A stretch of DNA of 64,000 nt from Solwaraspora sp. WMMD406 (GTDB taxonomy: Bacteria; Actinomycetota; Actinomycetes; Mycobacteriales; Micromonosporaceae). The position numbers were made by a program, and so were the translations under genes. The notes beneath the pieces are model-generated. The model had not been told where the DNA came from, did no database searches, and saw only the letters and a list, made by a program, of their open reading frames with translations. Location: positions 1,364,001 through 1,428,000 of the forward strand of contig NZ_JARUBF010000001.1 of assembly GCF_029626025.1 (NCBI RefSeq). The letters are read 5' to 3'. Of this stretch, positions 1-40,923 are shown one piece after another (positions within the stretch are counted from its first letter, which is position 1; each line of letters begins with the position of its first letter).

Positions 1-486
1 TACGCAACCGCTGTGTTCAGCATGAACCAGGTAGAAGTGCCTGCCGAGGAGATCGAACGCAAGGTCGAGGTGCGGATGCGTCGCGCGCGGCTACTGACTC
101 GGATCGAGCCGTACCTACCCGGGTTCGGCATAGTGCTCGACGAGTCGATCCTGCGTCGGCCGATCGGCGGCGGGCGGACGATGGCTGCTCAACTTCGCCG
201 TCTCGCCGAGGCTGGTGAGCTACCGAACGTCTCGATCCGGGTGCTGCCGTTCAGTGCCGGGTTGCATGCTGGTCTGATGGCACACGGGCCGTTCACCATC
301 CTGGATTTCCCAGAACCGAACGAGCCAACGACCGTCTATGTCGAGGAGCTGACGGGCGCGCTGTTCCTCGATCGGCCGGACGAGGCTGAGCGGTACGCTT
401 GGACCTTCACCGACATCGCTGGCCGGTCGCTGAGTGAACAGGCCAGCCGTGACCTCTTCTGGCGGGCGGCGAAGGAGTACGAGTAA
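1..486 (+). CDS. Helix-turn-helix regulator, DUF5753 C-terminal part (partial)
   Basis: The reading frame is open from base 1 (YATAVFSMNQ...), so the gene starts before the window and only about 161 C-terminal residues are seen. The visible part has DUF5753 features: an EEIERKVEVRMRRARLL segment, then LPNVSIRVLPFSAGLHAG and a hydrophobic FTILDFPE strand. In this family the missing N-terminus carries an XRE-type DNA-binding domain. The stop overlaps the start of the DUF397 gene by one base (TAATG), the usual pairing of these Scr1-like regulators with DUF397 proteins in actinomycetes. The regulatory role is inferred from the family; targets are unknown. Confidence 0.85.
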   Translation, partial: YATAVFSMNQVEVPAEEIERKVEVRMRRARLLTRIEPYLPGFGIVLDESILRRPIGGGRTMAAQLRRLAEAGELPNVSIRVLPFSAGLHAGLMAHGPFTILDFPEPNEPTTVYVEELTGALFLDRPDEAERYAWTFTDIAGRSLSEQASRDLFWRAAKEYE

Positions 487-686
487 TGACCGAGTTCTCT
501 GGATCTATCTGGCGGAAGAGCAGCCGGTCCAACAACCAGGGCCAGTGTGTCGAGGTGGCTGACGGGCTGGGTGGGGTCGTCGGGGTGCGGGACTCCAAGG
601 ATCCGGCTGGTCCGGTGCTGGCGGTCGCCCCGGCGAGCTGGTCGGCCTTCATCGCGGCGACCAAGGCCGGTGCCCTCACCAGCTGA
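486..686 (+). CDS. DUF397 domain protein
   Basis: A 66-residue protein with the DUF397 signature: WRKSSRSNNQGQCVEVA near the N-terminus, VGVRDSKDP in the middle and W-x-AFIAATKAG near the end. It starts inside the stop of the upstream DUF5753 regulator, so the two are probably translationally coupled. In actinomycetes such proteins sit beside helix-turn-helix/DUF5753 regulators, and several pairs influence development or antibiotic production. DUF397 is thought to be the regulator's partner, sometimes described as antitoxin-like, but its biochemistry is not settled. The length is normal for the family. Confidence 0.88.
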   Translation: MTEFSGSIWRKSSRSNNQGQCVEVADGLGGVVGVRDSKDPAGPVLAVAPASWSAFIAATKAGALTS

Positions 687-755
687 CGGGCGTCGTTCAC
701 TCCGTCGTGAGCACGTCGGTCGCCGGTACGGGGAGACCCATACTGCGGATCCTGC

Positions 756-793
756 TGATCCCCCACGGGGATCATGATCCCCGTGGGGGATCA
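756..793. repeat. 38-bp perfect doubled palindrome, copy 1
   Basis: TGATCCCCCACGGGGATCA is followed directly by its exact reverse complement, giving 38 bp of perfect dyad symmetry. Each 19-bp half is itself an inverted repeat (TGATCCCC-CAC-GGGGATCA), so the element holds four TGATCCC half-sites in alternating orientation. It lies 69 bp after the DUF397 stop and 109 bp before the DUF3800 remnant. A second element with the same plan but different inner bases lies at 40062-40103. It could be a tetrameric operator, a cruciform or REP-like repeat, or a bidirectional terminator. No T-run follows, which weakens the terminator reading. Confidence 0.85.
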
Positions 794-902
794 CTCCAGA
801 ACGCGGTATCCCTACCGCCGGGCGGCAGCGCGCCTCCGCCCGTCGAAGGCTGACCAGACTGAAGATCGATGCGAGGCACGGAAGCCCGACTATGCTCTGC
901 TG

Positions 903-20108: not shown

Positions 20109-20142
20109 GTCGGCTGACACCCGGTACCGGGTGTCAGCCGAC
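20109..20142. terminator. 34-bp palindromic terminator after the conservon
   Basis: A perfect palindrome with 17-bp arms (GTCGGCTGACACCCGGT and its complement), lying between the convergent conservon and nnaR. It can act in both directions. Confidence 0.8.
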
Positions 20143-39219: not shown

Positions 39220-39942
39220 TCAATCCGTCGCGGGGTGACCGTCGCCCCGGGCCCCTCGTAGCTGGCGATAGCGGCGCAGCAGGTCAGCGGTGTGTGGGTC
39301 GGCGATCTCCACCTCGGTCAGCGGCACGACCGGATACGTCTCGCCGTCGTGGCGGATCTCGATCCGCTCCGGCACCTCGTCGGACATCCGGGCGTGGATC
39401 TCGCCGGCCATCGTCCGCCAGCGGTGCGCTCCGGGCTCACGAGGATCGACGGGGAGGTGCCCGTACTCCTGCCACTTGTCGTACCACCGGCGGGCGTACA
39501 TCCGGGTCAGCCAGTCGGTGACGGCGGCGGCCTCGGACCAGAGCAGGACCACGTGCACCCCGGGCGCCGGCACCGGTACCCCGTGCAGCAACGCGGCCGT
39601 CGGACCGTCGAAGACGTAGCTGATCCCGGTGGCGCGTTGCCGGAACCGGGCGACGTCGGTGTCGCCGAGCCGATCGGCGAACGGACGGGTGCCGGCACCG
39701 GCGAGGAGCCGATCGACGTGGGCGTCGAGGTCCTCCACCCCGATCGTGAGCTGGCGGTCCATGGCCGCGAACAGCCGTTCGACCAGCGCCAGGCTCGGCG
39801 TCTGCACACCCCGCTCGATCCTGGCCAGGCTCGCCTGACCGACACCGGCACGGCTCGCCAGCGCACGCTGGGTGAGCAGGCGGGACTCTCGTTCCTGGCG
39901 CAGCGTGGCACCGAGAAGTGCGGCAAGTCGTCCGTCGGTCAT
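39220..39942 (-). CDS. XRE-type helix-turn-helix regulator with uncharacterised C-terminal domain
   Basis: A 240-residue protein. Residues about 5-60 are an XRE helix-turn-helix: LGATLRQERESRLLTQRALA, then VGQASLARIERGVQTPSLA. The remaining 170 residues contain YVFDGPTAALLHGVPVPAPG and AVTDWLTRMYARRWYDKWQE, slightly like AbiEi-type antitoxin regulators, but I do not recognise the family. ATG 39942 was chosen because the conserved part starts there. The gene interrupts the tsaE-tsaB neighbourhood in opposite orientation and is followed upstream by a palindromic operator candidate and the doubled palindrome, which suggests acquisition as a unit. Confidence 0.82.
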   Translation of the reverse strand: MTDGRLAALLGATLRQERESRLLTQRALASRAGVGQASLARIERGVQTPSLALVERLFAAMDRQLTIGVEDLDAHVDRLLAGAGTRPFADRLGDTDVARFRQRATGISYVFDGPTAALLHGVPVPAPGVHVVLLWSEAAAVTDWLTRMYARRWYDKWQEYGHLPVDPREPGAHRWRTMAGEIHARMSDEVPERIEIRHDGETYPVVPLTEVEIADPHTADLLRRYRQLRGARGDGHPATD

Positions 39943-40005: not shown

Positions 40006-40061
40006 GCTTGTCCCGGACCGGGACACGGTGTTTCGGCCCGGGACACGGTAGTGCGTTTGCG

Positions 40062-40103
40062 GTTGATCCCGCAGGGGGATCATGATCCCCCTGCGGGATC
40101 AAC
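40062..40103. repeat. 42-bp perfect doubled palindrome, copy 2
   Basis: The left arm (40062-40082) begins GTTGATCCCGCAGG and ends GGGATCA; the right arm is its exact complement. Like copy 1 at 756-793 it has the plan TGATCCC-N6-GGATCATGATCC-N6-GGGATCA. The inner six bases differ between copies (CCACGG versus GCAGGG) but each is matched by its partner arm. It lies between the helix-turn-helix gene and tsaB. Confidence 0.88.
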
Positions 40104-40206
40104 GCGAAATCGATTATGGGTTCCCGGGGTGGGTGGCCGGCACCGGACGGCGCGCTGTGGGCACCGGCGCGACGGTCGCCGGAGGTGCCCGGTTAGGGTG
40201 CATACC

Positions 40207-40923
40207 GTGCTGGTATTGGTGCTGGACTCGTCGACGCCCGCCGTGACCGTGGCGCTGGCCGAGGTCACGGCCGACGAGGTGCGGCCGCTGGCAGCACGGT
40301 GCACCGTCGACGCCCGGGCACACGGGGAACTGCTCGCCCCGCAGATCACCGCGGTCCTGGCCGAGGCCGGTGCGGCACCGGCCGACCTGGCCGGGTTGGT
40401 CGCCGGACTTGGCCCTGGGCCGTTCACCGGCCTGCGGGCCGGCCTGGTCACCGCTGCCAGCATCGCCCACGCCCTCGGGATCCCGGCGTACGGGGTCAAC
40501 TCGCTCGACGCACTCGGCCGTGACGCGGCTGGTCCGGGCACGGCCGGTCGTGCCGCAGTGGCCTCCGGCACGTTGTCGGGCCGGACGCTGGTGGCCACCG
40601 ACGCGCGGCGGCGGGAGATCTACTGGGCGGTCTACTCGGACGGAGTACGGGTCACCGGGCCGGCCGTGGACACCCCGGCAGCGGTGGCGGCGGCCCTGCC
40701 CGGCCTCGGTGTCACGGTGGCGGTCGGTGACGGAGCGCTACGCTACGCCGACCAGCTCGGGGTCCCCGTACTGCCCGAGCCACGCTTTCCCGCCGCGTCA
40801 CGGCTGGCTGAACTCGCCGCCGACCGGGTCCGCGCGGGGGCGCCCACCGAGCCGCTGACCCCGTGCTATCTGCGCCGACCCGACGCGGTCGCGGCGACGA
40901 CCCGCAAACCGGTGCTCACGTGA
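40207..40923 (+). CDS. tsaB: t6A synthesis protein TsaB
   Basis: A 238-residue actin-like pseudo-ATPase that partners TsaD. It starts LVLVLDSSTPAVTVALAE, and has AGLVAGLGPGPFTGLRAGLV and VNSLDALGRDA. I chose GTG 40207 because the family begins at this strand; GTG 40198 is an alternative. It is followed by rimI with a GTGA overlap, the usual tsaB-rimI-tsaD order. Confidence 0.94.
   Translation: MLVLVLDSSTPAVTVALAEVTADEVRPLAARCTVDARAHGELLAPQITAVLAEAGAAPADLAGLVAGLGPGPFTGLRAGLVTAASIAHALGIPAYGVNSLDALGRDAAGPGTAGRAAVASGTLSGRTLVATDARRREIYWAVYSDGVRVTGPAVDTPAAVAAALPGLGVTVAVGDGALRYADQLGVPVLPEPRFPAASRLAELAADRVRAGAPTEPLTPCYLRRPDAVAATTRKPVLT

Follow-up and report, generated by a model that had tools for sequence, protein, structure and literature searches.

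Paired palindromes in Solwaraspora sp. WMMD406 belong to a dispersed intergenic hairpin repeat that may be reshaped by template switching

Introduction

What keeps a long palindrome symmetric while its letters change? The question is raised by two elements in the window, that is, the whole stretch of 64,000 nucleotides analyzed here (Solwaraspora sp. WMMD406, contig NZ_JARUBF010000001.1, positions 1,364,001 to 1,428,000). An earlier note on this DNA had described perfect palindromes of one plan at 756-793 and 40062-40103, with arm differences matched from side to side, and direct reading bears out both observations. The plan itself, given as TGATCCC-N6-...-N6-GGGATCA, also stands, except that the spacer between TGATCCC and GGGATCA is better written as N5. 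The first palindrome consists of TGATCCC-CCACG-GGGATCA followed by its own reverse complement and is perfect over 38 nt. The second is perfect over 42 nt and comprises the 38-mer at 40064-40101 and two extra matched pairs, which were read by eye. With up to three mismatches allowed in its fixed letters, the 38-mer pattern matches twice in the window and in none of 100 dinucleotide-preserving shuffles. The features surrounding both elements are collected in Table 1.

Table 1. Elements and neighboring genes in the window (positions counted from its first letter)
Feature	Position	Strand	Basis
DUF5753 part of HTH-type regulator, upstream of element 1	13..486	+	Pfam PF19054
DUF397 gene, ending 69 nt before element 1	486..686	+	Pfam PF04149; missed by gene caller
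Element 1, whole unit of ~92 nt (outer arms and hairpin)	729..820	.	Covariance model R1
Element 1, perfect 38-nt palindrome, TGATCCCCCACGGGGATCA and its reverse complement	756..793	.	Direct reading; inverted repeat 100%; pattern search with shuffles
Helix-turn-helix gene, divergent from the tsaB-like gene, starting ~120 nt from element 2	39220..39942	-	Pfam HTH_3/HTH_31
Element 2, whole unit of ~92 nt	40037..40128	.	Covariance model R1; ssDNA fold
Element 2, perfect 42-nt palindrome around TGATCCCGCAGGGGGATCA and its reverse complement	40062..40103	.	Direct reading; pattern search for 38-mer
tsaB-like gene, starting 105 nt past the 38-mer of element 2	40207..40923	+	Pfam PF00814; site compared across species

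A dispersed repeat family

The two palindromes are members of a dispersed hairpin repeat family with 31 copies in this genome (G000; 7.16 Mb, three contigs). The 38-mer pattern occurs there 19 times exactly and 29 times at up to three mismatches, while the same pattern read backward, used as a control, does not occur. In 16 of the 19 exact copies the variable bases are symmetric too, the exceptions lying at 6103475, 6757489, and 6809270. The covariance model R1, trained on 27 copies (26 from G000 and one from G001), detects 31 elements in G000, of which 26 are training copies. Both window elements belong to the training set, and they are matched at G000:C1:1364729-1364820 (both strands, E 3.7e-17 / 9.2e-16) and at G000:C1:1404037-1404128 (E 1.9e-24 / 2.7e-22).

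Stacked copies resemble one another outside the palindrome as well, in both directions, and a half consensus near GGRACCNATAYTNCGTTTNGCGGC emerges ahead of TGATCCC. The repeated unit measures about 92 to 95 nt and consists of conserved outer arms flanking a hairpin with a 4-nt loop. Within one genome, the mean similarity between copies is slightly over background at 45-60 nt from the center and reaches background beyond about 60 nt. Solitary halves were considered as possible ends of a parent insertion sequence. This candidate was rejected, as the eight intact 19-mers outside the exact doubles sit in degenerate doubles, bar one half-lost copy. Some paralogous or duplicated regions carry an element in matching or almost matching positions (L006 and L030; L003, L015, and L092; L269 and L273).

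The family is present in all seven genomes of the genus (G000 to G006). Among 200 sampled genomes of the bacterial family, 22 from 5 of the 44 genera match at E <=0.001; the weak matches in G028, G060, and G167 (L079-L081) look doubtful, the usual core being missing or the palindrome poor. The exact 38-mer has no match in genome_contigs or viral_contigs, in a search that may omit near records. A plasmid or phage origin was set aside on the absence of the exact 38-mer from viral_contigs and on one copy (L013) that has no match in either collection. For the comparison of congeners, 161 element positions set by script were reduced to 142 distinct copies in which 16 or more of the 23 stem pairs are intact. 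The reduction removed 12 exact duplicates and seven copies under 16/23, three of which (L063, L014, and L033) were kept in the ortholog search. For this comparison 80 regions were taken, and copy numbers in the relatives are minimum values.

The copies fall into species dialects. With strands merged, the commonest loop is CAAG in G001 (20/30), G003 (19/26), and G004 (17/21), CAAA in G006 (15/23), AATT in G005 (5/9), and AATC in G002 (3/6). The commonest, although never the sole, stem arm is TGATCCCCCTGCGGGAT in G000, TGATGCCACAGGTGCAT in G001, G003, and G004 (33 of 52 arms in G003), TGATCCCGTTGGGGGAT in G006, and GTATTCCTC..GAGGAAT in G002 and G005. Within one dialect the cores are alike and the arms differ from copy to copy.

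Hairpin versus operator

The earlier note had read each element as four TGATCCC half-sites around a self-complementary center. This description holds in the species of the window and mostly fails in its relatives. The loop is CATG in 21 of 27 G000 copies, which makes the hairpin look like a perfect dyad; across the seven congeneric genomes, by comparison, the 4-nt center is self-complementary in 37 of 142 copies. In the relatives it is mostly a non-symmetric tetraloop, so a four-half-site dyad is not the general plan. Because the loop is usually not self-complementary elsewhere, the constrained object is the hairpin rather than the set of half-sites. The uninterrupted stem reaches at least 16 bp in 94 of the 142 copies and at most 12 bp in the other 48.

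Covariation between the arms, a check proposed in the earlier note, exceeds both shuffled and slid controls. On the 27 copies (26 from G000, one from G001), the long hairpin scores 0.270; shuffles average 0.122, and slid partners do not exceed 0.089. Two-sided cells number 83, against 43.0 in shuffles, and none of 500 shuffles is as high. In the same copies, 12 pairs show a two-sided change of any kind, a count not above shuffles, since 134 of 500 reach it. On A2, a set of 40 copies from several species, the score is 0.467 with 192 two-sided cells, where shuffles give 0.135 and slid partners no more than 0.091. The effect size is favored because the structure was taken from these sequences and the 40 copies were partly picked for clear, even-centered symmetry. 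Near-duplicates and weak or odd copies (among them L063, L072, L078-L081, L095, and L097) were left out of A2, which likewise favors pairing. The covariation supports the claim that the symmetry is not due to chance and is kept up.

These results bear directly on the possibility, raised by the four half-sites, that the element is an operator bound by two dimers of a regulator, one on the dyad formed by each 19-bp half. In keeping with an operator, the half consensus TGATnCCnCnGnGGnATCA comes close to a dyad by itself, and the 40 copies agree fully in 12 columns. Two dimers, however, need no mirrored variable bases, yet those bases covary, and a structure of two short hairpins scores 0.129 on the 27 copies, below the long one. 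In addition, the near copies at 262852 and 2970760 carry a matched change within otherwise fixed letters that keeps the long palindrome and spoils the short one.

The neighboring genes point the same way. The earlier note had placed a helix-turn-helix gene beside each palindrome. Pfam confirms this for both window copies: the HTH of the regulator upstream of element 1 precedes the window start, and a longer copy of the locus (L004) gives HTH_31 and DUF5753. As a rule for the whole family, the association does not hold. An HTH-family match is found in 3 of 30 neighbor proteins scanned (57 listed), one of the three under the curated cut-off, and the neighbors of family copies range over acetamidase, GDSL lipase, glycosyltransferases, methyltransferases, subtilase, and DUF families. 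An HTH-linked operator was rejected as a general account on the grounds of this heterogeneity. With most copies also lying past gene 3' ends, the operator reading is very unlikely.

Genomic placement and a possible RNA role

According to the home-made gene caller used throughout, none of the 142 copies lies within a gene; 57 are in tandem, 45 in convergent, and 13 in divergent contexts, and 27 have no resolved context. Convergent or tandem gaps thus hold 102 of the 115 resolved copies. As a small control, the window's own gaps of at least 100 nt (n=21) comprise 10 tandem, 8 divergent, and 3 convergent ones. In tandem copies, the hairpin center lies at a median of 128 nt from the upstream stop and 262 nt from the next start, and 41 of the 57 are closer to the stop.

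Such placement past gene ends is what would be expected of RNA hairpins that serve as bidirectional terminators or 3'-UTR stabilizers, kept by ordinary pairing selection and compensatory point mutations. The stability of the structure fits as well: four elements folded as single-stranded DNA give z from -5.5 to -8.2, with a 17-bp stem, a CATG loop, and z -5.5 for element 1 and z -7.6 for element 2. Other observations speak against this role. When tandem copies are oriented by gene direction, their 1140 stem cells contain G.U pairs (25) in no clear excess over A.C (17), with 47 other mismatches. The A1 and A2 consensus sequences contain no intrinsic-terminator T-run after the stem, and 13 copies are situated between divergent genes. 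An Rfam scan of 13 loci returned no family at gathering score on the elements, and all sub-threshold matches were to microRNA-precursor models; a known structured RNA family was excluded as a candidate on this basis. Like bidirectional intrinsic terminators, the elements form stable hairpins beyond a stop codon, in many cases between convergent genes. Unlike terminators, they have a core and outer arms conserved across the family. The RNA reading is considered somewhat unlikely, and further results on either side of it come from the orthologous sites.

Orthologous sites

Flank matching, with limits set in the script, gave 94 matches and from these 52 ortholog pairs at 30 sites. Fourteen of the 52 pairs rest on a single flank, and pairs that share a site lack independence; at one of the 30 sites, paralogs (L003/L015/L092/L273) are combined. 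A close clade of G001, G003, G004, and G005, picked after the loops had been seen, contributes 42 pairs. Divergence within these pairs is 7.0% in the aligned flanks, 2.5% in the 15-bp core, 17.3% in the loop, and 9.5% in the next five pairs of the stem. The low divergence of the core is compatible with selection, including selection on an RNA hairpin, but homogenization from copy to copy would give the same.

The loop changes in a particular manner. In the 42 close pairs it is identical in 24, one base off in 7, exactly reverse-complemented in 9, and otherwise two bases off in 2. Consequently, 9 of 11 two-base differences are exact reverse complements, as spacer inversion would produce, whereas two random base changes in a 4-mer would turn it into its own reverse complement with a chance of about 1/54 (own arithmetic, equal rates). 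Both orientations occur at 6 of the 30 sites, five with CAAG/CTTG and one with CAAA/TTTG, and each site has at least one pair matched on both flanks. Of the possible one-step intermediates, a single site shows CATG opposite CAAG, and no site shows CTAG. The clearest flip, L084/L089, lies in nearly unchanged flanks and conserved arms; the least secure is at the L220 site, where the outer arms differ. Three of the six flipped sites were spotted by eye before the count, and the other three (L220, L221, and L191) come from loci fetched or compared later.

Mutation by quasipalindrome correction and template switching at hairpins is the subject of PMC8794818, PMC8604942, and PMC7202029, and inversion of the spacer between two arms is a template-switch product described in PMC8604942. 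The present elements resemble these cases in that arms are made to match and the spacer is inverted; they differ in that the changes lie in a dispersed repeat of bacteria and arose naturally as species diverged. The opposite loops at orthologous sites hint, as far as sequence comparison goes, at template switching between the arms of the hairpin. Pairing selection on RNA, by contrast, leaves reverse-complemented loops unexplained.

The stems change less tidily. Over the 52 pairs, 76 stem cells pass on one side from paired to unpaired, against 27 that differ on both sides and still pair. Two pairs account for eight of the 27 each: L063/L270, whose hairpin center the script mis-set, and L197/L062, which differ over the whole element. 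Their removal leaves 70 against 11, and the 42 close pairs give 47 against 5. The earlier note had named arms that vary without symmetry in other strains as evidence against its idea, and this is found in part, one-sided changes being common between close species. Since they outnumber matched changes, matching lags behind mutation and is not immediate, with the reservation that repair to the old letter would be invisible. A predominance of one-sided changes is also what later compensation in an RNA hairpin would leave. Clear two-sided changes in place are seen at L008/L176, at L219/L234, and at site A (L011/L061 versus L063/L270); two-sided changes also occur at the tsaB site. At site A, the stem beside the core reads GGGCG in both arms in G000 and G001 and CATCG in both arms in G002 and G006.

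Of the two explanations offered in the earlier note, selection for dyad symmetry or a copying process that makes palindromes, the latter gains support from the flipped loops, and the former is compatible with the conserved core. The four-half-site dyad as the general plan is not supported.

Loop flips and arm matching could also come from short-tract gene conversion between dispersed copies. Within a genome, many copies have the same palindromic stem, as the G003 arms illustrate, which makes donors in either orientation plentiful, and exchange between like-stemmed copies could turn a loop round. Nevertheless, the shared homology amounts to only about 18 bp per side of the loop, and the stem next to the core varies from copy to copy, yet is often matched within a copy. 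Gene conversion, in place of events within one hairpin, is regarded as a decidedly unlikely source of the flips and the matching.

The site of element 2 allows a wider comparison. The adjacent gene is presumably tsaB, Pfam itself assigning it to the TsaD family, and its best TsaB relatives are from Micromonospora (62-66% identity). Palindromes with other letters occupy the orthologous gap in G002 and G005 (20/25 pairs), G006 (18/25), Micromonospora sonchi (L117, 20/25), and M. marina (L119, 22/25). In G161, from another genus, the arms pair with an offset. Weaker cases are L115 (17/25) and G004, with rearranged halves (15/25), and half-like remnants are visible by eye in G001 and G003. Among 18 tsaB loci of genome_contigs (L114-L131), clear palindromes of the same plan occur in L117 and L119, whereas L116, L118, and L120 have palindromes with other letters upstream of tsaB. 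L124 and L125 reach 18 and 19/25 pairs within G+C-rich repeats, L124 with 190 nt upstream only, and the rest reach 15 to 17/25. Run on 19 tsaB loci of genome_contigs, R1 gives a single match (L115, E 0.0028) and misses L117 and L119, which are seen by symmetry only. The loop ATTC is common to M. sonchi, M. marina, and G006 at this site, and the stems differ, as would be expected if the site had been inherited and the stem altered in place.

Mobility and comparison with known repeats

REP, BIME, and REPIN repeats are short dispersed intergenic palindromes with paired inverted units, tens of copies per genome, and species variants (in part after PMC8266576). The present family shares this description, being dispersed, palindromic, and multi-copy (31 in G000) and, with no copy in called genes, intergenic. 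It differs in three respects. In 18-nt windows, the GTAG tag stands at the stem foot in 3 of 284 arms versus 21 of 568 control windows, and CGTC in 21 of 284 versus 67 of 568, so neither is enriched. Y1_Tnp (PF01797) has no match at E 0.001 in G002 and G006, both of which carry copies; matches occur in the other five of the seven genomes, several in multi-copy loci. Finally, the two inverted units abut and form one hairpin with a 4-nt loop within a unit of about 92 nt. A present need for a RAYT was rejected on the tag test and on the lack of a Y1 match in two of seven copy-bearing genomes; an extinct or unrecognized enzyme could still have acted.

The Y1 loci L104-L113 (G000, G001, G003, G004, and G005), which are taken to be IS200/IS605-like, resemble one another along 0.6 to 1.8 kb, with identities of about 82 to 99.8%, and are multi-copy in G001 and G003.

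MITEs are non-coding, dispersed elements of around 100 bp with inverted ends. The hairpin family is similar in size, non-coding nature, inverted ends, and dispersal. It is unlike them in that neither a parent insertion sequence nor a target duplication was found and in that nearly the whole unit is one hairpin.

A MITE- or REPIN-like non-autonomous repeat still moved by some enzyme, whose symmetry reflects a hairpin intermediate in transposition and whose differing copies at one site reflect re-insertions, must also be weighed. The species dialects with many alike cores and the conserved outer arms agree with it, as do different dialects at one orthologous site (L197/L062; the tsaB site). In the gap of L012, moreover, G005 (L157) and G002 (L159) have GTATTCC-type hairpins, while G001, G003, G004, and G006 have none above 15/22 pairs. 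Among 20 stretches of the L012, L013, and L038b regions taken from relatives, however, no clean filled and empty pair with a target duplication was found, the gaps being diverged or rearranged; for want of such a site, transposition is presumed rather than read directly. The differing arms within a dialect also count against continued movement, as does the scarcity of very recent jumps: leaving L245/L246 aside, the only such sign among compared copies is L269/L273 in G006, yet there the likeness extends outside the element. The G003 copies L245 and L246 are identical over 120 nt and agree at 67% ungapped over 1.7 kb. The L084/L089 flip within conserved arms is not what re-insertion would leave, and G006 and G002 bear copies yet give no Y1_Tnp match. 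Ongoing mobilization is therefore possible but not probable.

Proposed mechanism and significance

The account considered somewhat more probable than not is a dispersed REP-like hairpin repeat of about 92-95 nt, intergenic and mostly past gene 3' ends, that undergoes template switching between its arms and retains its core. In this account, the hairpin would be extruded from single-stranded DNA at replication, and the polymerase would sometimes switch template from arm to arm. Such a switch could invert the loop and rewrite one arm from the other, allowing the palindrome to outlive changes in its letters. The TGATnCC..GGnAT core may be kept constant within a species by protein recognition or by homogenization between copies, while dialects turn over between species. 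The enzyme that disperses the element need not be a resident Y1 transposase. Of these steps, only dispersal and template switching have direct evidence in the sequences, and that for template switching would serve equally for conversion between copies.

REP/BIME repeats have been proposed to act at 3' ends or on DNA topology. By analogy, the hairpin might do so at its sites, which is the least certain step.

A bolder version treats the elements as self-repairing hairpins, in which arm copying at replication renews the symmetry, letters drift into dialects, the same gaps remain occupied, and spread depends on non-HUH machinery; taken as a whole, it is rather unlikely.

Arm covariation is usually read as proof of structural selection. 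Because a flipped loop marks a mutational event, the mapped orthologous hairpins, with their mostly asymmetric loops, let the shares of selection and template switching in arm matching be asked in living genomes. The family is also a sign that REP-like repeats can occur here with no usual tag and, in two of the genomes, with no match to a Y1 transposase. The open-licence literature yielded nothing on this subject for REP in actinobacteria or Micromonospora, for REP with template switching, or for palindrome and repeat families of Micromonosporaceae, and the actinobacterial terms looked for are absent from the available part of PMC3733652.

Additional observations

Several minor features were noted during the analysis. 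At G000 C1:4662671-4662743 (L083:1672-1744), a single 19-mer lies between matched arms, as if half of the element had been deleted across the palindrome. In L148 (G004, tsaB site), the halves appear by eye to be direct and not inverted, as if one half had been turned round. A stretch of about 2.7 kb (L141:2854-5564) recurs at least twice in every one of the seven genomes, and two of its G000 copies (L002 and L038) bear the element at the same end. The GTATTCC-type hairpins L157 (G005), L159 (G002), and L171 (G005) form 18 to 19 of 22 pairs; L157 and L159 lie in the gap in which G000 carries L012. Short palindromes around GGGGCCAGGC in L118 (Micromonospora sp. CP22) and L120 (Verrucosispora sediminis) perhaps represent a second dispersed palindrome family.

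Within the window, positions 20109-20142 form a perfect 34-bp palindrome, GTCGGCTGACACCCGGTACCGGGTGTCAGCCGAC, whose sequence is unrelated to the hairpin element. A TPP riboswitch over the Rfam gathering score occupies 1665-1776 (L004 2410-2521), immediately ahead of the gene at 1771-2442, which looks like thiE.
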